Shown here in pieces: positions 11,853 to 57,243 of a stretch of DNA of 57,436 nucleotides; position 1 is the first letter of the stretch; the number at the start of each line of letters is the position of its first letter. The translations under genes and the position numbers were made by a program. The notes under the pieces were generated by a model, which saw only the letters and a list, made by a program, of their open reading frames with translations, ran no database searches and was not told the origin of the DNA. Where the stretch lies: positions 1-57,436 of the forward strand of contig CADAWR010000012.1 of the NCBI GenBank assembly GCA_902791695.1. The letters are read 5' to 3'. The DNA comes from an uncultured Bacteroidota bacterium. Lineage in GTDB: Bacteria > Bacteroidota > Bacteroidia > Bacteroidales > P3.

Positions 11853-11885
11853 GCACTCATTTCCAGAACTTTTCCGCATCCTCAC

Positions 11886-11975
11886 CGTACCCGCTCCGTA
11901 CCCGCTCCGACTGTTCACCGGTTGTTTAACGGTTTTTGGTCGGAGCGGGGTCGGAGCGGGTACGGAGCGGGTACG
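11886..11975. repeat. Long dispersed palindrome, copy 1 (perfect 26-bp arms)
   Basis: Arms 11886-11911 and 11950-11975 are exact reverse complements. They consist of tandem CCGTACCCGCTC / GAGCGGGTACGG units. The loop contains TGTTCACCGGTTGTTTAACG, which recurs in the copies at 24193 and 35926 and in scraps near 3058. It lies between the convergent acyltransferase and helicase genes, where it could act as a bidirectional terminator. Other copies lie between divergent genes, so termination cannot be the general role. Confidence 0.9.
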
Positions 11976-11981
11976 AAGAAA

Positions 11982-13427
11982 TCACGCAAAGAAGCGTTCG
12001 TCGAAACCGAGCAGGTAGACCCTGCCGGTGGCGCGGGTAAAAGCCGTATAGAGCCAGCGCAGGTAGTCGCGCCCAAGCGGCTGGTCAGGCGGCAGGAAGC
12101 CCTGGTCGATGATTACCGTGTTCCACTGACCGCCCTGTGTCTTGTGACAGGTAAGAGCGTACGAGAACTTGACTTGCAAGGCATTATAGAATGGATTTTG
12201 GCGTAGTTCGCGCATACGGTCGGCCTTGTGCGGAAGGTCGGCATAGTCCTCCATGACGGCGCTGTAGAGCTGCTCCTGCTCGTCGGCGGTGAGCGACGGC
12301 GACTCGCTGTAAAGGGTGGAAAGCAGCAACTTGCAGTCACGCTCCTGCTCGTCAGGATAGTCCACGAAACGCAGTGTAGCGTCAGCAAAGCGGAAACCAT
12401 ATAGTTCTTGCACATTGCGCACGCCAAGCACCTCAACGATGTCGCCGTTGGCGATGAAGCCTATTGAGCTGTCGCCATCGAGCCAGAAGTAGTTGTTTTT
12501 CACCACCATCAGATAGTCGCCGGCGTTGACCTCCTGCTCACGGAAAAGGACACTGTTGCGCACACCCTGGTTGAAGAGGTTGGCGCGCTTGTTGCTGCGC
12601 GTGACGATGACGACCTCTTCCTGCCGTCGGTCGCCATATTCGCGGTAGAGGGTCTCCATGAGGTCGCTGCCGGCGAGGTTGACAACATCGTCGGCCACGG
12701 AGAAAAGCGGCAGGCTGACCTCGTCGGCATCCGACATATCGGCAATCTGTCCACGGAGAGCCGTTGCATTGGACAGGATGCCCGACAGGCTCTGCTGGCG
12801 CACCACCTCGGTAAGCTCATGAGGCGTCACGTTGAGTGCGAAGGCTGATGACAGATAACGCTCGTCAAGGGCCGGGCTTTCACTCTGGCCGACAGGGGGG
12901 AGCTGGGCGGTGTCCCCTATAAGCATCAGGCGGCAATGATTGCCGTCGTAGACATAGTCCACCAAGTCTTCCAGCAGACTGTGGCCGCGCGCCACGGGCT
13001 CGACGCCTATCATCGAAGCCTCATCAACGATGAATAGCGTGTGGCTGTGCTTGTTGACGGCACGGACGGTGCGGACAACACCCGAGGCGTCGGTTGCCGT
13101 CATGTATATTTTCTTATGTATGGTGAAGGCCTGGCGCCCGGAATAGCCCGAGAGCACCTTGGCGGCGCGTCCGGTCGGGGCCAACAGGACACTGCTGACA
13201 CCCAGCTGCGGCAACGTCTGGATGAGGGCTGAAACAAGAGAGGTCTTGCCGGTGCCGGCATAGCCGCGCAACAGCATAGCCGAACGCGGGTCGGAATCAT
13301 AAAGGAAACGCGACATAAGGGCACAAGCAACCCGCTGCCCGTCGGTAGGAATGTGCGGGAAGCGGGATAGTATGAGCTTTGTAACTGACTGCTCTACGTC
13401 GCGGAGAGCCACAGTATTATTCTGCAA
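11982..13427 (-). CDS. RecD-like (SF1B) ATP-dependent DNA helicase
   Basis: About 481 residues. Motifs in order are Walker A (GYAGTGKTS), Walker B (LFIVDEASM), motif III (LIGDTAQLPPVG), motif IV/V (YALTCHKTQGGQW) and motif VI (LYTAFTRATGRVYL). It is a compact Dda/RecD2-type 5'-3' helicase without the RecD2 N-terminal domain. The first in-frame initiator is TTG 13427 inside the secG stop region; a GTG five codons later is the alternative, and there is no nearby ATG. It is co-directional with and overlaps secG by 11 bp, so it is probably transcribed with it. The function is DNA repair or replication support; partner unknown. Confidence 0.88.
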   Translation of the reverse strand: MQNNTVALRDVEQSVTKLILSRFPHIPTDGQRVACALMSRFLYDSDPRSAMLLRGYAGTGKTSLVSALIQTLPQLGVSSVLLAPTGRAAKVLSGYSGRQAFTIHKKIYMTATDASGVVRTVRAVNKHSHTLFIVDEASMIGVEPVARGHSLLEDLVDYVYDGNHCRLMLIGDTAQLPPVGQSESPALDERYLSSAFALNVTPHELTEVVRQQSLSGILSNATALRGQIADMSDADEVSLPLFSVADDVVNLAGSDLMETLYREYGDRRQEEVVIVTRSNKRANLFNQGVRNSVLFREQEVNAGDYLMVVKNNYFWLDGDSSIGFIANGDIVEVLGVRNVQELYGFRFADATLRFVDYPDEQERDCKLLLSTLYSESPSLTADEQEQLYSAVMEDYADLPHKADRMRELRQNPFYNALQVKFSYALTCHKTQGGQWNTVIIDQGFLPPDQPLGRDYLRWLYTAFTRATGRVYLLGFDERFFA

Positions 13428-23655: not shown

Positions 23656-23746
23656 CTATTTTAGGTTTTTTTTTGATTTTTCTCCCCAAAGAGAAACAGT
23701 AATGTGTCGCCCCTACGGGGCTCGAAAAAGGGTATCGCCTGCATCC

Positions 23747-24184
23747 ATCCCGTGGGCTCACGCCCACGGCTAACCACTGACGTCCCCTTCGGGGACTTAT
23801 ACTTCCCGCAAAGCCCTGCCAAGGGCGTCAGCCTTTAGCCGTGGGCGTGAGCCCACAGTCCCGCGGCGGGGTCTTCTGCCACCTACTAAGCCCTGCCAAG
23901 GGCGCCAGTCTTTAGCCGTGGGCGTGAGCCCACGGTCCCGCGGCGAGGTCTTCTGCCACCTGCTAAGCCCTGCCAAGGGCGCCAGTCGTTAGCCGTGGGC
24001 GTGAGCCCACGGTCCCGCGGCGGGGTCTTCTGCCACCTGATAAGCCCTGCCAAGGGCGCCAGTCGTTAGCCGTGGGCGTGAGCCCACGGTCCCGCGGCGG
24101 GGTCTTCTGCCACCTGCTAAGCCCTGCCAAGGGCGCCAGTCTTTAGCCGTGGGCGTGAGCCCACAGTCCCGCGGCGGGGTCTTT
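23747..24184. repeat. Tandem array of five 77-bp units with GC-rich hairpins, plus one inverted copy
   Basis: AAGCCCTGCCAAGGGCG begins units at 23811, 23888, 23965, 24042 and 24119: exactly 77 bp each. Every unit contains the hairpin CCGTGGGCGTGAGCCCACGG and then CCGCGGCG-GGTCTTCTGCCACC. Upstream at about 23747-23773 the same hairpin plus TTAG occurs in the opposite orientation, next to a second small palindrome (GTCCCCTTCGGGGAC). The units differ at only a few positions. This is REP/BIME-like DNA; no transposase is present. The 822-bp spacer 23513-24334 holds this array, the promoter at 23626 and palindrome copy 2, and no gene. Confidence 0.93.
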
Positions 24185-24192
24185 TATCACCG

Positions 24193-24289
24193 TATCCGGT
24201 CCGTACCCGCTCCGTACCCGCTCCGTCTGTTCACCGGTTGTTTAACGGTTTTTTGTCGGAGGGAGGTCGGAGCGGGTACGGACCGGATA
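24193..24289. repeat. Long dispersed palindrome, copy 2 (perfect 22-bp arms)
   Basis: Arms 24193-24214 and 24268-24289 are exact reverse complements. The left side carries an extra TACCCGCTCCG unit. The loop again has TGTTCACCGGTTGTTTAACG, identical to copy 1. It sits directly beyond the 77-bp array and 45 bp before the start of the TPR lipoprotein gene. Confidence 0.9.
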
Positions 24290-24334
24290 GGGTGCCGCAC
24301 AATAAAAAAACCAATCCGTCGTTATTAAGGCGTC

Positions 24335-35826: not shown

Positions 35827-35925
35827 AATTGTGTTTCTAACGCCACCGCCCCACTTTTATTGTGTGCGCCCTATATTTTTATTTAAACGCCGCAATCCCA
35901 CGCCGCACCCCCTACCCCACCGCGC

Positions 35926-36058
35926 CGTCGCCTCTCCGTACCCACTCCGTCCGTTCACCGGTTGTTCTACGACTGTTCACCGGTTTAAACCGGTAAACAA
36001 CCGGTGAACAACCGTAGAACAGACGGAGAGGATACGGAGAGGGTGCGTAGAGGCGACG
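35926..36058. repeat. Long dispersed palindrome, copy 3 (compound hairpin)
   Basis: The outer arms CGTCGCCTCT (35926-35935) and AGAGGCGACG (36049-36058) are exact complements. Inside are CTCCGT/ACGGAG arms, then GTTCACCGGTTGTTCTACG and its near-complement, and in the centre the palindrome CCGGTTTAAACCGG. The wording TTCACCGGTTGTT ties it to copies 1 and 2, while the arms have diverged. It occupies the mrdA / secreted-protein divergent spacer (35827-36158), which has no gene. Confidence 0.85.
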
Positions 36059-36099
36059 CGGCGACAATGGCCAAATTATTGCAAAAGAAGACAAAAAAT

Positions 36100-41552: not shown

Positions 41553-43829
41553 ATGAGTGAACTACTGGGACAACTGAACGAACCACAGCGCGAGGCGGCG
41601 CAGTGCACCGAAGGGCCGGTGATGATTATCGCCGGTGCCGGCAGTGGCAAGACACGCACGCTGACCTACCGCATAGCACACCTGATAGAGAAAGGAGTAG
41701 ACCCCTACCGCATACTGGCACTGACCTTCACCAACAAGGCCGCAGGCGAGATGAAGGAGCGTATCATAAAACTGGTGGGCTCGGAGGCCCGCAATATATG
41801 GATGGGCACCTTCCACTCGGTGTTCGCACGCGTGCTGCGCGCCGACGGCGACAAGCTGGGCTACACCAACAGCTTCACCATCTACGACACCGACGACCAG
41901 AAGGCGGCCATCAAGCAGATAGTGAAGCAACTGAACCTCGACCCCAAGGCCTACAAACCCAGCTATGTGCTGGGGCGCATATCCATGGCCAAGAGCAACC
42001 TGATAGGGCCCAAGGACTACATGGAGAACCCCGAGATATACCAGACCGACCAAGACGCCAAACGCCCTGCCGTGGGGCAGATATACCAGATGTACGACCA
42101 GCGCCTGCACAACTCGAACGCCATGGACTTCGACGACCTGCTGTTCAACATGAACATACTGCTGCGCGACTTCCCCGACGTACTGCTGAAGTACCAGCAG
42201 AGGTTCAACTACATCATGGTGGACGAGTACCAGGACACCAACTACGCGCAGTACCTCATCGTCAAGAAACTGGCGGCACGCCACCAGAACATCTGCGTGG
42301 TGGGCGACGACGCTCAGAGCATCTACGCCTTCCGTGGGGCCAACATACAGAACATCTTCAACTTCAAGCGCGATTACCCGCAGATGAAGCTCTTCAAGCT
42401 GGAACAGAACTACCGCTCCACGAAGACCATCGTGAACGCCGCCAACAGCATCATAGGGCACAACCGCGACCAGATACAGAAAGAGTTGTGGAGCGACAAT
42501 GCCGAGGGTAACCGCATACGTCTGATACGATGTGCCGACGAGCGCGACGAAGGCAATCGCGTGGCCGACGCCATACAGGACACGCGCATAGGGCAGGATG
42601 CCGAATACCGCGACTTCGCCATACTCTACCGCCAGAACTCGCTGTCGCGAGCCGTGGAGGACTCGCTGCGCCGCAGCAACATACCGTACCGTATCTACCA
42701 GGGCATCTCGTTCTATGGCCGCAAGGAGGTCAAGGACGCGCTGTGCTACATGCGCTTGGCGGTAAACCCCCACGACGACGAAAGTCTGGTGCGCATCATC
42801 AACTACCCCGCCCGCGGCATCGGACAGACAACGATGGACAAGATACGCGTGGCGGCATCGGACAACGACATCAGCATATGGACAGTGCTGGAGAACATAC
42901 AGGACTTCGGTCTTGGGCTCAATAGCGGTCTGATGCAGAAAATACAAGAGTTCGTATTCATGATTAAGCGCTTTGAGGCGCAGGTGCCGACGGTGGATGC
43001 CTTTACGCTGGCCAAACAGATTGTCTACGCCAGCGGCATCATCAAGGCACTGCGCGAAGCCGACGAGCCCGACATGGCGGAGCGCATCGATAACATCGAA
43101 GAGCTGCTCAACGGCGTGCAGGAGTTCTGCGAGAGCGAGGAGGAGATACCGGAAGGCACCGAAACGGCGCCTTCGGGCATCCGAACCCTCGACGAATTCC
43201 TGCAGCAGGTGCTGCTATACACCAGCGAGGACAAAGACAAGGACAAGGATGCCGACAAGGTGAGCCTTATGACCATCCATGCCGCCAAGGGTCTGGAGTT
43301 CCCATATGTATTCGTGGTGGGCATGGAGGAGCAACTGTTCCCGTCGTTCCTGGCGTCGTCGCGAGCCGAGATGGAGGAGGAGCGCAGATTGTTCTACGTG
43401 GCGGTAACACGCGCAGAGAAACAGGTGACGCTGAGCTATGCCCAGACGCGCTTCAACAACGGCCAGCGTACAGGCGGCGAGGTGAGCCGCTTCGTGGAGG
43501 AGATAGACTCACAGTATATTGAAACGCCACGCCGTCAGCAACCCACCATGCCAAGTAGTCTATGGAACATCGGCAAACCGCAGCCATCGGTGAAGAAGAA
43601 ACCACAGCCGACATTCGTGCAGCGCGGTCCCGCTGTACCCAACAATCCGGCACAGATAGGCGCCATTATGCCCGGCATGAAGGTACAGCACGAGAAGTTC
43701 GGCATAGGCAAGGTGCTGGCCATAGAGGGCACCGCCGACTCGCGCAAGGCCACGGTGTTCTTCGAAGGCGGCGTGGGCAACAAGCAGCTGATGCTCAAGT
43801 TTGCCCGCCTCACGATAATTGACGATTAA
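41553..43829 (+). CDS. pcrA: UvrD/PcrA-type 3'-5' DNA helicase
   Basis: 758 residues. SF1A motifs: Q motif (LNEPQREAA), Walker A (AGAGSGKTRTL), Ia (LTFTNKAAGEM), II (MVDEYQDTN), III (GDDAQSIYAFRGA), IV (LEQNYRS), V (MTIHAAKGLEFPYVFV), VI (RLFYVAVTRAE). The C-terminal Tudor-like RNA-polymerase-binding segment (GMKVQHEKFGIGKVLAIEG) supports PcrA/UvrD over Rep. It acts in nucleotide excision and mismatch repair and clears RNA polymerase from DNA. The GxxExxY unit follows 55 bp after the stop. Confidence 0.95.
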   Translation: MSELLGQLNEPQREAAQCTEGPVMIIAGAGSGKTRTLTYRIAHLIEKGVDPYRILALTFTNKAAGEMKERIIKLVGSEARNIWMGTFHSVFARVLRADGDKLGYTNSFTIYDTDDQKAAIKQIVKQLNLDPKAYKPSYVLGRISMAKSNLIGPKDYMENPEIYQTDQDAKRPAVGQIYQMYDQRLHNSNAMDFDDLLFNMNILLRDFPDVLLKYQQRFNYIMVDEYQDTNYAQYLIVKKLAARHQNICVVGDDAQSIYAFRGANIQNIFNFKRDYPQMKLFKLEQNYRSTKTIVNAANSIIGHNRDQIQKELWSDNAEGNRIRLIRCADERDEGNRVADAIQDTRIGQDAEYRDFAILYRQNSLSRAVEDSLRRSNIPYRIYQGISFYGRKEVKDALCYMRLAVNPHDDESLVRIINYPARGIGQTTMDKIRVAASDNDISIWTVLENIQDFGLGLNSGLMQKIQEFVFMIKRFEAQVPTVDAFTLAKQIVYASGIIKALREADEPDMAERIDNIEELLNGVQEFCESEEEIPEGTETAPSGIRTLDEFLQQVLLYTSEDKDKDKDADKVSLMTIHAAKGLEFPYVFVVGMEEQLFPSFLASSRAEMEEERRLFYVAVTRAEKQVTLSYAQTRFNNGQRTGGEVSRFVEEIDSQYIETPRRQQPTMPSSLWNIGKPQPSVKKKPQPTFVQRGPAVPNNPAQIGAIMPGMKVQHEKFGIGKVLAIEGTADSRKATVFFEGGVGNKQLMLKFARLTIIDD

Positions 43830-43883
43830 ACAAAGGTAAACGTGAATAGCCTTTTTTTGATGTGAATGGTCTTTTTAATTTAA

Positions 43884-44397
43884 CGCGTATTATCGTAAAT
43901 TGGTTCGTTAATTATCGTAAATGTCATGGTCAACTTTACTCGATACGAGGATTTAGTATATGAAATCATAGGTGCCGCAATGGCCGTGCACCGCACTCTT
44001 GGGAGTGGTTTGTTGGAAGCCGTTTATGCCGAGTCTTTGCACTTGGAGCTTCTAGACAACGGCATTGACAACACATTGGAGAAAGAAGTGAATTGCTATT
44101 ACAAAGATCACTTATTGGAGAAGAAATACCGATTAGATATGGTAGTAGGTGATATTTGTGTGGAATTAAAGTCCGTAGAAGAACTTGCAGCAGTACATCG
44201 GGCTCAACTCTTCAATTACCTGAGGCTTACCAGAATGCCTGTAGGATTATTGATAAATTTTGGCGGCGAGAGTCTTGAAGGGGAGCGGTATGCTTTCATT
44301 GAAGAGAGGAACCTCTGTTGCCGATTAGACAAAAACATGCAACTTGTGCAATAAAGAGATTTACGATAATTAACGGATTAATTCACGGTAATTAACG
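43884..44397. mobile_element. Repeat-bounded unit carrying a GxxExxY gene
   Basis: CGTTAATTATCGTAAAT at 43906-43922 and its exact reverse complement at 44359-44375 flank the GxxExxY gene. The left side also has a second ATTATCGTAAAT (43889-43900). The right side continues as CGATAATTAACG-G-ATTAATT-C-ACG-G-TAATTAACG (44364-44397). The latter matches 31 of 34 bases of the right arm of a gene-less unit at 45938-46034. The unit is AT-rich against a GC-rich background. Mobility is inference: no target duplication is obvious. Confidence 0.6.
43926..44354 (+). CDS. GxxExxY protein (PD-(D/E)XK nuclease-like fold)
   Basis: 142 residues, complete. The family signature is in GSGLLEAVYAESL (G-x-x-E-x-x-Y), and the nuclease-like core is R-L-D-MVVGD-I-x-VELKSVEEL, with Asp, Glu and Lys of a PD-(D/E)XK active site present. 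Members are widespread, small and of unknown function. The ATG lies 4 bases past the left inverted repeat and the stop 4 bases before the right one, so gene and repeats form one unit. A+T content and codon use differ from pcrA and dtd on either side. Intact active-site residues suggest it is functional. Confidence 0.92.
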   Translation: MVNFTRYEDLVYEIIGAAMAVHRTLGSGLLEAVYAESLHLELLDNGIDNTLEKEVNCYYKDHLLEKKYRLDMVVGDICVELKSVEELAAVHRAQLFNYLRLTRMPVGLLINFGGESLEGERYAFIEERNLCCRLDKNMQLVQ

Positions 44398-44438
44398 TAA
44401 AAAAAGCAATTCACGTAAACCAAGAATATTTACGTAAA

Positions 44439-44900
44439 ATGAGACTGGTAATTCAACGTGTAAGTGAAGCTTCCGTCAGCATAGGAGGCACATTAAAGTC
44501 GTCCATCGGCGAGGGAATGATGATTCTTGTGGGCGTCTGCGACGAGGACACAGACGAGGATATAGAGTACTTGTGCCAGAAAGTGGTGAAGCTGCGCATA
44601 TTCGACGACAGCGTGGGGGTGATGAACCTGCCCGTCACCGAGGTACCCGGCAGCGGCATCCTCGTGGTGAGCCAGTTCACGCTAATGGCTTCCACCAAGA
44701 AGGGCAACCGTCCCAGCTACATACACGCCTCGCGGCCGGAGTTCGCGGTGCCGATGTACGAGAAGTTCGTGACCAAGCTGCAGTCACTCTTCGGCCATGA
44801 AATACAGACCGGCACCTTCGGCGCCGACATGCAGGTGTCGTTGATTAACGACGGCCCAGTAACCATCATCATGGACTCCCACCAGCGGGAGAGGTTTTAG
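44439..44900 (+). CDS. dtd: D-aminoacyl-tRNA deacylase
   Basis: 153 residues. It removes D-amino acids mischarged on tRNA. Starts MRLVIQRVSEASVSIGG; motifs SQFTLMAST (Ser-Gln active-site segment) and the Gly-cisPro element written NDGPVTI. Full length. The start lies only 42 bp after the right end of the GxxExxY unit, so the repeat sequence forms its leader (ATTTACGTAAA just before the ATG). It is followed by a 22-bp tandem repeat and convergent prmC. Confidence 0.95.
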   Translation: MRLVIQRVSEASVSIGGTLKSSIGEGMMILVGVCDEDTDEDIEYLCQKVVKLRIFDDSVGVMNLPVTEVPGSGILVVSQFTLMASTKKGNRPSYIHASRPEFAVPMYEKFVTKLQSLFGHEIQTGTFGADMQVSLINDGPVTIIMDSHQRERF

Positions 44901-44919
44901 CCCCGTCCAAGTATAGGAC

Positions 44920-45047
44920 ATCTATACTTACAGTATACTTACCCTATACTTAGGATATTGAAAGAGTATACAAACAGTATTTAAAGAGTATACAAACAGT
45001 ATTGAAAGAGTATACAAACAGTATAGAAACAGTATACAAAGAGTATT
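44920..45047. repeat. Four 22-bp tandem repeats with GTATAC palindromes, plus a related TATACTTA run
   Basis: Units begin at 44960, 44982, 45004 and 45026; the consensus is GAAAGAGTATACAAACAGTATT. The fourth unit is diverged (GAAACAGTATACAAAGAGTATT). Just upstream (about 44930-44953) CTATACTTA/GTATACTTA occurs three times. The array lies between convergent dtd and prmC and continues to 6 bp from the prmC stop. No hairpin with a T-run is seen. Confidence 0.92.
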
Positions 45048-45053
45048 GGATGC

Positions 45054-45935
45054 CTATACAAAACGTGCCGATATCCAGCGAGACTTATCACGGAAGTCAG
45101 CATGCACCTTGGGCGTGAAGCCTTGTGCCTTGAATACGGCGCAGGTCTCCTCGGCCAAAGCCTCATTGATTTCTACCACCACCTGGCCGTTCTCGGCCAG
45201 GTGATTTTGGGCAACGGTGGCGATGGCACGGTAGAACCGTAGCGGCTCGTCGTCGGGCACGAAGAGGGCCAGCGCTGGGTCATAGTCGAGCACGTTGGCA
45301 GCCATCTGTGCCCGCTCACTGTCGCGGACGTATGGCGGGTTGCTGACAATAAGCCCATAAGACCCATTCAACCCATCAACCCCATTAAGCACATCCCTTT
45401 CCATGAAGCGCACCTCCACGCCGTTGTTTTTGGCGTTCTGCCGCGCAATCTCCAAGGCCTCGGGTGAGACATCCACCGCCGTCACGTCGGCCGCAGGAAA
45501 GGCCTTTTTTAGTGCAATGGCAATACACCCACTGCCGGTGCACAAGTCAAGAATGGTGAATGGTGAAAGGTGAAAGGTGAAATTATGGAGTATCCATTCA
45601 ACTATCTCCTCTGTCTCAGGCCTCGGTATCAGCACATCGGGGCTCACGGCAATGCGGCAGCCGCAGAACCCCACAAAGCCGATTATATGCTGTATGGGTC
45701 GGCTTTGTTTAAGGTCTTCGAGCGCCCAGTGGAAGCGCAGCAAGTCGCTCTGGTCGATGGTCTGCTCCCGCGAGGTCAGCAGCCGCACCTTGTCCCAGCC
45801 GAGGAAGGCCTCGAAGAGCATGTCGAGGAACACGCCCACCTCGCCGCTGCCGTACATGCCGTCCAGCTCCTCGTGGTAGAGGCTGATGATGTCGCGCACG
45901 CGATTAGACTTGAAGCGGAGGTTGCGGGTATTCAT
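45054..45935 (-). CDS. prmC: Peptide chain release factor N5-glutamine methyltransferase
   Basis: 293 residues. It methylates the GGQ glutamine of release factors. An N-terminal helical domain is followed by PDVLIPRPETEEIVEW, ILDLCTGSGCIAIALK (SAM site), VDVSPEALEIARQNA and the catalytic IVSNPPYVRDSE. Two loops contain in-frame simple-sequence insertions: NGVDGLNGSYG (from CCCATTCAACCCATCAACCC on the plus strand) and FTFHLSPFTI (from tandem GGTGAAA on the plus strand). These do not disrupt motifs. Upstream is the gene-less repeat unit at 45938. Confidence 0.94.
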   Translation of the reverse strand: MNTRNLRFKSNRVRDIISLYHEELDGMYGSGEVGVFLDMLFEAFLGWDKVRLLTSREQTIDQSDLLRFHWALEDLKQSRPIQHIIGFVGFCGCRIAVSPDVLIPRPETEEIVEWILHNFTFHLSPFTILDLCTGSGCIAIALKKAFPAADVTAVDVSPEALEIARQNAKNNGVEVRFMERDVLNGVDGLNGSYGLIVSNPPYVRDSERAQMAANVLDYDPALALFVPDDEPLRFYRAIATVAQNHLAENGQVVVEINEALAEETCAVFKAQGFTPKVHADFRDKSRWISARFV

Positions 45936-45937
45936 TT

Positions 45938-46034
45938 TTACGTTAATTATCGTGAATTCACTTCGTTAATTGCCGCAAATTATTTTGTCATCATTATTGA
46001 CGATAATTAACGAATTAATTTACGTTAATTAACG
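45938..46034. mobile_element. Gene-less (MITE-like) copy of the GxxExxY-flanking repeats
   Basis: CGTTAATTATCG (45941-45952) and CGATAATTAACG (46001-46012) are exact complements. The right arm 46001-46034 differs at 3 of 34 positions from 44364-44397, the right flank of the GxxExxY unit. The left arm also aligns with the left flank of that unit (ATTATCGT-AATT, then TTCGTTAATT). Between the arms are only about 48 bp. It fills the spacer between prmC and the RNase H gene. Confidence 0.65.
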
Positions 46035-46045
46035 TTCACATAAAC

Positions 46046-46726
46046 TCATTTGCGTCCAAAGTCCGCCGGTATCTCGCCCCAGTTGTCGGTGTCCCACTTG
46101 CGTATCTCGGTGGTGTAGCTGTTGGTGCGGAGCCAGTTCTCGGCGCGGTGGATGTAGTCCCACAGCTCGGCGGTCGAGGCGTCCTCCGGCAGCTTGCTCT
46201 TGCACACCTTCTGCCGCACCCAGCTGATGGCGTTGACACTGTCGCTGTATATTATCTGGTTGAGGCGGTGCTTCTTGAGGTAGCTCAGGCCGTGCACTAT
46301 GGCCAGGAACTCGCCGATATTGTTGGTGCCCTTCTCTGCGCGGTAGTGGAAGACGCGCGTCCGCGTGGGGATGTAGATGCCCTGGTACTCCATCACGCCG
46401 GGGTTGCCGCTGCAGGCGGCATCGACGGCCAGCGCGTCGAGCACGGGCGGATTGTCGGTGCCGGGCTTCACGGCGGTCATGCCGTTCTCGTCGATGACGA
46501 GACACCCACTCTGCCCAGTTGACCCATTATGCCCATTCGCCCCACTCGACTGCACCACGCTGCTGTACGGCAGCTTGATTGCCGCCTCGGCCTCGGCCAT
46601 GCTGTCGAAACCCTTGTACTGCGCCCCCTGCACGCCCATGACCTGCTCCTTGCACGCGTCCCAGTCGCTGTAGATGCCCGGCTTTTTGCCCTGCCACACC
46701 ACGTAGTATTTCTGTTTCTTCGCCAT
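46046..46726 (-). CDS. Ribonuclease H with viroplasmin (caulimovirus) N-terminal domain
   Basis: 226 residues from ATG 46726 (MAKKQKYYVVWQGKKPGIYSDW). The N-terminal hybrid-binding viroplasmin domain (WQGKKPGIYSDWDACKEQV, YKGFDSMAEAEAAI) is followed by an RNase H fold with catalytic carboxylates in VDAACSGNPGVMEYQG, the Glu of NNIGEFLAIVHGL, IIYSDSVNAI and a C-terminal DTDNWGE. It degrades RNA in RNA-DNA hybrids. The linker SSGANGHNGSTGQSG is encoded by the same CCCATT-type simple repeat seen in prmC. TATCTTTG on the minus strand (complement of 46741-46748) is the -7 box. Confidence 0.92.
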   Translation of the reverse strand: MAKKQKYYVVWQGKKPGIYSDWDACKEQVMGVQGAQYKGFDSMAEAEAAIKLPYSSVVQSSGANGHNGSTGQSGCLVIDENGMTAVKPGTDNPPVLDALAVDAACSGNPGVMEYQGIYIPTRTRVFHYRAEKGTNNIGEFLAIVHGLSYLKKHRLNQIIYSDSVNAISWVRQKVCKSKLPEDASTAELWDYIHRAENWLRTNSYTTEIRKWDTDNWGEIPADFGRK

Positions 46727-47207
46727 AGTTTTCCGCGTGCAAAGATACAAAAATTTTGCCACATGGAGAAAATGTCGTATCTTTGCATCCGATTTCAATA
46801 GGAAATCGTCGAAGCGTTATGCTCTGACTCTTGCTAGTAGAAACGTGAGAAGTTTTTAACCGCTATTGATTATCAATAAATTACAAAATCGTTCTTAAAA
46901 AGTGTTCTTTTCTTTGTTTCTTATTATCAGAGGCAAAGATACGACTCTTTTCCCATTCTGTCATTTTTTTCTGTCGTCCACGCTGGTATCACACGCGACG
47001 AATCGAGGATTTGGCCACTTCTGACAAGACCAGAAACACCACGACGCCAATCCAAGAACCTGATTATGTGTTAGGTGTGTGTCTATGGCGCAATTTTGGG
47101 GTACTGAAACCAATCCATAACTTCCACAGGTTTAGTTATTTGTTGGATTTTTGGGTATACTGTGGCAAACCAGGTTGAGGTAGTCAGGATTGAGTCCGAG
47201 ACAAATA
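46727..47207. other. Gene-poor left junction of the 9.3-kb element
   Basis: No gene is seen. A plus-strand promoter (46757-46786) points into this region with no gene after it. A second -7 box faces it on the minus strand (TATCTTTG, complement of 46934-46941). CTAGTAG-AAACGTGAGAA at 46834-46851 and AAAATCG-TTCTTAAAAAG at 46885-46901 have partners at the right end of the element (56099-56117 and 55880-55898). The rest, to the terminator at 47208, has no recognisable content. Confidence 0.5.
46757..46786 (+). promoter_or_regulatory. Orphan consensus promoter pointing into the element
   Basis: TTG at 46757-46759, a 19-bp spacer and TATCTTTG at 46779-46786: a perfect match. No plus-strand gene follows before 48156. 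If the element at about 46834-56117 were removed, it would lie about 130 bp upstream of the lipoprotein gene at 56203, its likely original target. Confidence 0.65.
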
Positions 47208-51902: not shown

Positions 51903-52565
51903 ATGAATAACAATACAGCTGCCATATATGCCAGGGTCTCTTCAACGAATGACCGTCAGAACACCGAGAGACAAGTTATCGACCTAACCAGGTATGCCGA
52001 GCATAACGCCATCAACATTGTCAAGGTGTACGAGGAACATATCAGCGGAGCGAAGAAAAACGATGAACGGCCAGTTCTCATAGATTGCCTTAATTATTGT
52101 TTTGAGAACGGAGTCGCTATGTTGCTACTGAGCGAACTAAGTCGCCTTGGACGTAATGTTGATGAAGTTCTCGCGAATGTGCGCCTGTGCAAAGAGAAGC
52201 ACCTGAACCTGTATTTCCAAAAGGAGAACATTAGTATCTTTCAGGCCGACGGGAGCGAGAACCCCTATCTTACCATTATGATTGCAGTGCTTGGCACGTG
52301 CGCCCAAATAGAGCGAGACTCAATTAAATTCAGGCTGAACAGCGGCAAGCTCCGAGCCATTGAGAGGGGGGTGAGAATGGGGCGCAAGCCAGGTTCCGTG
52401 AAGACCAGGGAACAAAAGGAAATCGAATACAAGGACGTTATCCTATATCTCCGTAAAGGTTACTCAATCAAAGCAACGGCCAAGCTATGCGACAAAAGCG
52501 CAAGTACCGTTCAAAGGGTCAAGAGAGAGTTTCTGAGTGCATACTATAGACAAGTAAACGTATAG
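51903..52565 (+). CDS. Serine recombinase (resolvase/invertase family)
   Basis: 220 residues. The N-terminal catalytic domain has the nucleophile in AAIYARVSS, then LLLSELSRLGRNVDEVL with the conserved arginine, and GTCAQIERDSIKFRLNSGKLRA before the long E-helix. The C-terminal GRKPGSVKTREQ segment and a helix-turn-helix (SIKATAKLCDKSASTVQRVKR) make it an intact small resolvase/invertase. It would resolve multimers or invert a segment of the element. Direct GTTAGTCAA repeats (about 51806 and 51821) lie upstream and may be its operator. Confidence 0.92.
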   Translation: MNNNTAAIYARVSSTNDRQNTERQVIDLTRYAEHNAINIVKVYEEHISGAKKNDERPVLIDCLNYCFENGVAMLLLSELSRLGRNVDEVLANVRLCKEKHLNLYFQKENISIFQADGSENPYLTIMIAVLGTCAQIERDSIKFRLNSGKLRAIERGVRMGRKPGSVKTREQKEIEYKDVILYLRKGYSIKATAKLCDKSASTVQRVKREFLSAYYRQVNV

Positions 52566-57047: not shown

Positions 57048-57243
57048 GAAAGTGCACCGCGCTCATGTGCGGGATGTTGAAACAGTCCATACAATACACC
57101 TCGCTCATGTGCGAGGTCTGTTTTTTGCCGGAAAGTGCTCCCCGCACATGTGCGAGGTCGATTTTCGGCCGGGAAGTGCTCCCCGCACGTGAGCGCGGTC
57201 TGTTTTCAATGAAAAAGCGCTGCCCGCTCATGAGCGCGGTGCC
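57048..57243. repeat. Five palindromic repeats at 41-42-bp periodicity
   Basis: Palindrome centres are at about 57064, 57106, 57147, 57188 and 57229. Unit wording is CCGC-(A/T)-CATGTGCG-(A/C)-GGTC, then about 20 bp such as TGTTTTTTGCCGG, then AAGTGCTCC. Versions of the palindrome vary in matched pairs (GCACATGTGC, GCTCATGAGC, GCACGTGAGC). The 381-bp spacer 56938-57318 holds this array and two terminators. Confidence 0.9.

Follow-up and report, generated by a model that had tools for sequence, protein, structure and literature searches.

The 57,436-nucleotide window analysed here, one entire contig (C12) of the 2.17 Mb genome G000 of an uncultured Bacteroidales bacterium, raises the question of why a small gene of the GxxExxY family, lodged between uvrD and dtd, should be enclosed by inverted repeats, and why the same repeats should recur nearby with no gene between them. 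The initial annotation had read the two as complete and miniature versions of a single unit defined by its repeats, and the relatives, in which gene-bearing, remnant and gene-less units are found together with empty sites, agree with that reading. We think it probable that the unit is a small mobile element with gene-bearing and gene-less forms, which would work much as repetitive extragenic palindromes and their REP-associated tyrosine transposases (REP/RAYT) do, with a PD-(D/E)XK nuclease instead.

The gene-bearing unit comprises a left arm (43879..43925) built of four units of about 10 bp, a GxxExxY gene of 142 amino acids (43926..44354) and a right arm (44356..44402), all on the plus strand; the complete arms are 47 nt long and 79% complementary. 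The perfect 17-bp inverted repeat reported earlier (43906-43922 and 44359-44375) is present within them, 3 bp upstream of the ATG at 43926 and 4 bp past the stop at 44354, and the complete arms prove to be longer still. Degenerate arm-like units, TTCACGTAAA and TTTACGTAAA, follow on the same strand (44403..44438) and reach the dtd start; they lie within the inserted stretch and are missing at empty sites. GxxExxY is the sole open reading frame of at least 80 amino acids listed in the unit, where no transposase of a known type is found. The neighbours used in the empty-site comparison, a uvrD/pcrA-type helicase gene on the left (41553..43829) and dtd (D-Tyr-tRNA deacylase) on the right (44439..44900), are likewise on the plus strand.

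The gene-less hairpin (45934..46040), with arms as in the gene-bearing unit, is inserted on the minus strand between, and adjoins, an rnhA-like ribonuclease H gene (46046..46798) and a prmC-like methyltransferase gene (45054..45935), both also on the minus strand. The right flank of the gene-bearing unit is repeated at 45996-46035 with 36 of 40 identities; the recurrence at 46001-46034 with three mismatches and its own left arm is as first described, with a short loop and no gene. In aligned gene-less units each arm contains, by eye, four CGTnAATT units, spaced 10, 12 and 10 bp apart. Folded as single-stranded DNA the window's unit reaches -22 kcal/mol (z -5.4, matched by none of 200 shuffles), and two further gene-less units of G000 give z values of -4.7 and -1.9. 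No GTAG tag was noticed by eye at the repeat ends of the aligned gene-less units, no dedicated search having been made.

The protein scores 128 bits against TIGR04256 (GxxExxY; cut-off 35) and 119 bits against PF13366 (PDDEXK_3; cut-off 22), and its closest relatives, among the best 80 of 121 matches, belong to uncultured Bacteroidales. No variation is seen among 86 sequences at E31, Y34, D71, E80, K82, Q94, Y98, G107 and N111, and the D..ExK..QxxxY pattern (D71, E80-x-K82 and Q94xxxY98 in the window's protein) is retained; a conserved D, ExK and QxxxY constitute the Cas4/RecB-like PD-(D/E)XK motif. The predicted structure has a mean predicted local distance difference test (pLDDT) score of 96.4, and a fold search returned three matches at E of 0.001 or below, all of them chains of SSO0001 (4ic1, best 1e-4; template-modelling score 0.46-0.49, with a large root-mean-square deviation), which we take to be a Cas4 nuclease; the next matches were RecE, lambda exonuclease and a Cas4-family protein (E 0.05-0.08). 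A sequence search of PDB chains with the same protein gave no match. GxxExxY is thus predicted to be a Cas4/RecB-like PD-(D/E)XK nuclease, in keeping with the nuclease-like fold first proposed, whereas the accompanying analogy with a recombinase is not borne out by either sequence family or predicted fold. Compared with the G015 orthologue, the proportion of nonsynonymous differences (pN) is 0.021 and that of synonymous differences (pS) 0.54, and the gene is therefore under strong purifying selection. PADLOC has no match for either of the two GxxExxY proteins of G000, and PHROGs has none for the window's protein and one weak match for the other. Open-access full text yields no role for GxxExxY, the name appearing only as a table entry or as an annotation in place of cas4.

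Empty sites, which had been suggested as a check in related strains, are found at three junctions. Of 30 dtd loci read in the genus, four (G000, G023, G008 and G015) have the complete unit, with both repeats and gene, between uvrD and dtd, as does one record beyond these 30 (L050); L051, L052 and L053 share contigs with G015, G023 and G008 and are not tallied as additional genomes. In eight loci uvrD and dtd are adjacent or nearly so, with neither repeat nor gene (L134 in G010, L136 in G071, L143 in G025, L145 in G073, L146 in G012, L147 in G067, L149 in G016 and L159 in G011); another gene or stretch precedes dtd in ten, and the dtd start was not located in eight. The gap between rnhA and prmC is 0-30 bp in seven of eight relatives and consists in G008 of 58 bp of a different simple repeat, so that the hairpin is found there in G000 only. 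Judged by same-genus relatives without them, both units of the window are insertions. Insertion of GxxExxY into a pre-existing hairpin was considered and rejected for the window locus, because the empty sites lack the hairpin as well.

The third junction, between genes for a family-2 glycosyltransferase and a DPP-IV-type peptidase, was compared in 16 genomes of the genus. It is empty in G081, G070, G023, G010 and G022; it holds a window-type gene-less hairpin in G000 and G008, a variant of it in G015 and a gene-less hairpin of different sequence in G012; a full GxxExxY gene (124-133 amino acids) within other arms is present in G071, G025, G073 and G002, and those other-type arms surround an internally deleted GxxExxY gene in G004 and G036; G009 has unrelated DNA upstream. 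This graded series is what an autonomous element and its non-autonomous derivatives would leave, and it shows the same junction being used by different lineages of the element. Taken together, the sequences show units that insert whole into tight gene junctions, decay by internal deletion and multiply as gene-less hairpins. Two of the insertions have short matching sequences at their borders: in G015 the uvrD-dtd unit lies between TAGAACCTTGA and TAGAGCCATGA (9 of 11 bases), and the window's gene-less unit has AAATGA (6 bases) on both sides. Target duplication is a plausible reading of both.

Further copies in the genome, which had also been proposed as something to look for, were found. The pattern TTTACGATAATTAACG, with up to two mismatches, has 18 matches in G000 against one for a reversed control pattern; eight of the 18 are within the window's two units and ten are elsewhere, at eight places. 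With a covariance model built on gene-less units, at least five sites are found in G000, the window's and at least four more; the alignment of six sequences behind the model included four of these five, and only C25:13891 was newly found. Elsewhere there are at least five sites in G008, six in G015 and seven in G012 and at least one to three in eight further genomes, and none among the candidates listed in nine of the 21 genomes searched; these numbers are manual counts of distinct places and may be low. Closely similar hairpins of about 90-130 bp without a gene were also recognised by eye at five loci of G181 (L255, L256, L257, L260 and L261), and some of the 20 stretches taken from that genome (e.g. 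L262, L264 and L268) contain no convincing hairpin. The arm order in several gene-less copies is opposite to that of the gene-bearing unit.

A different history could be imagined for these sites, in which GxxExxY acts in the manner of a homing nuclease, cutting the uninterrupted allele, after which homologous repair between strains would copy the unit in, the arms being by-products or self-regulatory binding sites. The protein is by family a PD-(D/E)XK nuclease and has the size of a homing enzyme, filled and empty alleles are precise, and in L050 (2756-3760) the left arm together with a 3'-truncated 5' piece of GxxExxY occurs twice ahead of the complete gene, a nested duplication starting from the arm that suggests break repair there. 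However, homing does not explain gene-less hairpins multiplied at many unrelated sites, nor the occupation of unrelated sites by similar proteins with similar arms, and as the empty sites lack the repeat we regard it as a possibility that is unlikely and not favoured.

Inverted flanks are a common property of GxxExxY genes. We reduced 147 loci, chosen in each search by highest score (30 in two surveys, the best 80 of 121 in another) and not at random, to 118 below 85% protein identity, 117 of them with full flanks. An inverted-flank score of at least 18 is reached by 78 of the 117. The control genes reach it in 16 of 271 cases, the block-shuffled flanks in 4 of 117 and the mismatched pairs in 101 of 1159, and chance pairing of A+T-rich flanks is rejected on these three controls. 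Repeated 7-mers (at least 40) occur in the flanks of 73 of 117 GxxExxY genes and 58 of 271 controls, a count that is not relied on because its separation from controls is poorer. The expectation that GxxExxY genes in relatives would have such flanks is therefore usually upheld as to the presence of arms, but not as to their sequence: outside the home order they are often of the CACAGAG, CGCAAAG or CACGGAG kind, and even the second GxxExxY gene of G000 (C3:83391) has flanking repeats that differ from the window's. GxxExxY genes on plasmids of Treponema, Fusobacteria, Gemmatirosa and Sphingomonas score only 9-12, although short repeats are visible by eye in one or both of their flanks, and the case beyond the phylum is thus weak.

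The arms nevertheless follow the protein. In pairs of loci without shared neighbour genes, the fraction of 6-mers shared between flanks rises from 0.145 at protein identities below 35% (600 pairs) to 0.274 at 70-86% (164 pairs), whereas for DNA 300-420 bp away it rises only from 0.113 to 0.131; by this measure, the arms vary in sequence from lineage to lineage and go with the protein even where the sites are unrelated. For comparison, we scored the flanks of 20 genes for Y1 transposases and 20 for S23/IVP in the same phylum, losing one Y1 locus at a contig end. A score of at least 18 is reached by 7 of 19 Y1 genes, 8 of 20 IVP genes and 15 of 29 GxxExxY genes of the same survey, which are not significantly different; by eye, the Y1 genes have G+C-rich hairpins unlike GxxExxY arms, and the IVP genes have short tandem units of other sequences. 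We note separately that these S23/IVP (PF05635) genes (L324-L343) often lie between short tandem inverted repeats of another sequence class and may be hairpin-borne small genes of a sister class.

The arrangement of the arms bears on whether they act as DNA or as RNA. In an RNA-level account, resembling the intervening sequences (IVSs) of 23S rRNA, the hairpin would act in the transcript, GxxExxY or RNase III would process it, and operons would tolerate the insert. The gene does sit in a stem-loop, S23/IVP genes have similar flanks of different sequence, and GxxExxY shares the direction of its two neighbours in 71 of 108 loci (controls 89 of 180; Fisher p 0.007) and is opposed to both in 2 of 108 (controls 20 of 180; p 0.005), although this bias may reflect no more than the survival of inserts within operons in that orientation. 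The spacing of units points to DNA: in 191 intergenic flanks the excess self-match is 0.045 (standard error 0.006) at lag 10, 0.027 at lag 11 and 0.015 at lag 21, compared with -0.009 at lag 10 in 105 control stretches. Peaks at 10-11 and 21 bp fit the turn of B-DNA and not the 11-bp A-form turn, for which a peak at 22 is expected; none is seen there, and an exact 11-bp period is not supported. No Rfam family is matched at its gathering score, three weak matches to microRNA models lying far below theirs, and we consider an RNA-level element quite improbable.

The association extends to whole genomes. GxxExxY genes are present in 74 of 148 sampled genomes of the phylum, and above cut-off in 73; the other 75 are treated as non-carriers, and two repeat patterns derived from flanks were counted in all 148. 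The summed hits number at least ten in 33 of the 73 carriers and in one of the 75 non-carriers (means 17.2 and 1.5), and when labels were shuffled within 12 mixed families (107 genomes) the observed difference was never reached in 20,000 trials. These comparisons show that arms, so far as sequences reveal it, change together with the protein, and that gene and repeats co-vary between genomes.

The repeats might instead be moved by Y1 transposases (RAYT, or those associated with terminal inverted repeats, TIRYT), GxxExxY being a passenger. PF01797 genes are present in 105 of the 148 genomes and in 31 of the 34 repeat-rich ones, and inverted flanks occur at the sampled Y1 genes as given above; PF05635 is present in 116 of the 148, and each family alone is associated with the repeats (Fisher p 0.0024 for PF01797 and 0.0016 for PF05635). 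In a joint model, however, GxxExxY is the sole predictor (t 7.3, against 1.1 for Y1 and 0.1 for IVP), which disfavours either family as the true partner, with the caveat that both are often inverted-flanked. PF01797 has no match in G000 or in the repeat-rich carriers G083, G104 and G186; the 45 genomes with Y1 and without GxxExxY have a median of one hit, a single one reaching ten; and the G+C-rich flanks of Y1 genes look by eye unlike GxxExxY arms. We therefore think it very unlikely that GxxExxY is a passenger. A stationary gene between arms that serve simply as regulatory or terminator hairpins, which a single locus taken alone would allow, is scarcely credible given that arms and gene are jointly missing at empty sites and that gene-less copies have multiplied.

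In the mobile-element reading that we prefer, the gene-bearing form (arm, GxxExxY nuclease, arm) would be the autonomous copy, and gene-less hairpins with the same arms would be non-autonomous derivatives spread with its help. The nuclease may bind the arms in the form of an extruded hairpin or through a series of sites that recur once per turn and share one face of the B-DNA, and would cut at the arms; host repair or copying of the ends could then place a copy elsewhere or duplicate the unit locally. By architecture the nearest known kind is REP/RAYT (REPtrons and REPINs) and TIRYT, which likewise have one gene between inverted repeats, gene-less copies dispersed between genes, and a repeat sequence that changes along with the protein; unlike these HUH/Y1 transposase systems, the unit here encodes a PF13366 PD-(D/E)XK nuclease in a genome without a PF01797 match, and is not a RAYT because the catalytic family is different. 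Miniature inverted-repeat transposable elements and their parents similarly have inverted ends and occur at a single junction as complete, internally deleted or gene-less copies, but here there is no known type of transposase in the unit and target duplication is not consistent. A 23S rRNA IVS with its S23/IVP gene is also a small gene in a stem-loop insert, and IVP genes of the phylum, like GxxExxY, often have short inverted flanking repeats; known IVSs interrupt 23S rRNA genes and code for a four-helix bundle, whereas the GxxExxY unit lies between the protein genes uvrD and dtd and encodes a predicted nuclease. With the Cas4, RecB and lambda-exonuclease nucleases GxxExxY shares the D..ExK..QxxxY pattern and the fold match to SSO0001; it differs from them in being a single small domain, whose conserved columns show no cysteine cluster, and in being set within repeats and not beside cas genes.

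We put forward more tentatively, as an idea falling somewhat short of probable, that a class of mobile elements widespread among bacteria has GxxExxY proteins as its dedicated mobilisers. These elements would have hairpin-arm ends made of units one DNA turn apart, their non-autonomous copies would be the abundant intergenic repeats of the CACAGAG, CGCAAAG and CACGAATT types, and a solo Cas4-like PD-(D/E)XK nuclease would serve as transposase. If the link is true, each of the two would supply what the other lacks, a function for the protein family and a mover for the repeats; a mobile element driven by a Cas4-like nuclease would become directly testable, and there would be a bearing on the origin of solo Cas4-type nucleases. 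No account of these short repeats or of a mover for them was found in the open-access literature, subscription journals and preprints lying outside the scope. Two repeats already described are different from the GxxExxY-associated hairpins: a Prevotella repeat of 188 bp without terminal inverted repeats (PMC4755523) and TAACTGA direct repeats (PMC4679880).

Several observations weigh against a GxxExxY-driven element. Families f40, f47 and f51 run counter to the trend between carriers and repeats, and 40 of the 73 carriers have fewer than ten hits of the two patterns; such low counts would be expected if the arms of these carriers had other sequences. G012 has at least seven hairpin sites of the window's kind or near it, and yet its one GxxExxY gene is flanked differently, while G023 carries the window-type gene and has one such hairpin site among the matches listed. 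Target duplications are inconsistent, with none at the glycosyltransferase-peptidase junction and plausible ones at the two others. Binding and cutting of the arms by the nuclease, and movement of the unit, are steps that we infer from sequence comparison. As the Y1 and IVP rates are similar, inverted flanks alone are not diagnostic of GxxExxY outside the home order, and it is the kind of repeat, the tracking of protein by arms and the co-occurrence in genomes that set GxxExxY apart. Both repeat patterns were, moreover, chosen from GxxExxY flanks, and the hit positions were therefore examined in three genomes with all their GxxExxY genes listed: by hand count, 24 of 25 CACAGAG-type hits in G101, 44 of 45 in G206 and 23 of 28 in G156 are more than 500 bp from any GxxExxY gene, those of G206 being largely local arrays. 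In G206, CACAGAG-type arrays surround two GxxExxY genes (C1:1578991-1681541), and 41 of the 45 repeats in the genome are on the reverse strand.

Other repeats are present in the window. Between dtd and prmC there is a AGTATACAAAC array of 11-bp period (44909-45063), a junction occupied by differing inserts in different relatives, and short tandem units (ACCCATT-like and GGTGAAA-like, by eye) lie inside the prmC and rnhA frames (45350-45395, 45557-45585 and 46508-46548). Another family of gene-less hairpins, with G+C-rich 11-bp units (CCGTACCCGCT) and a common core CTGTTCACCGGTTGTT, is found at 11863-11984, 24179-24300 and 35909-36063, with an extra copy at L013 next to a AATTCACG-type repeat; no gene partner was seen for it. 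Two arms of tandem TATCAG-type units, inverted and separated by 118 nt, are located at 1636-1661 and 1780-1805, and tandem repeats of 77 bp and 41 bp at 23713-24191 and 57099-57221 respectively. A resolvase-type serine recombinase (PF00239) is encoded at 51903-52565, 7.5 kb from the GxxExxY unit, with no link seen between the two.

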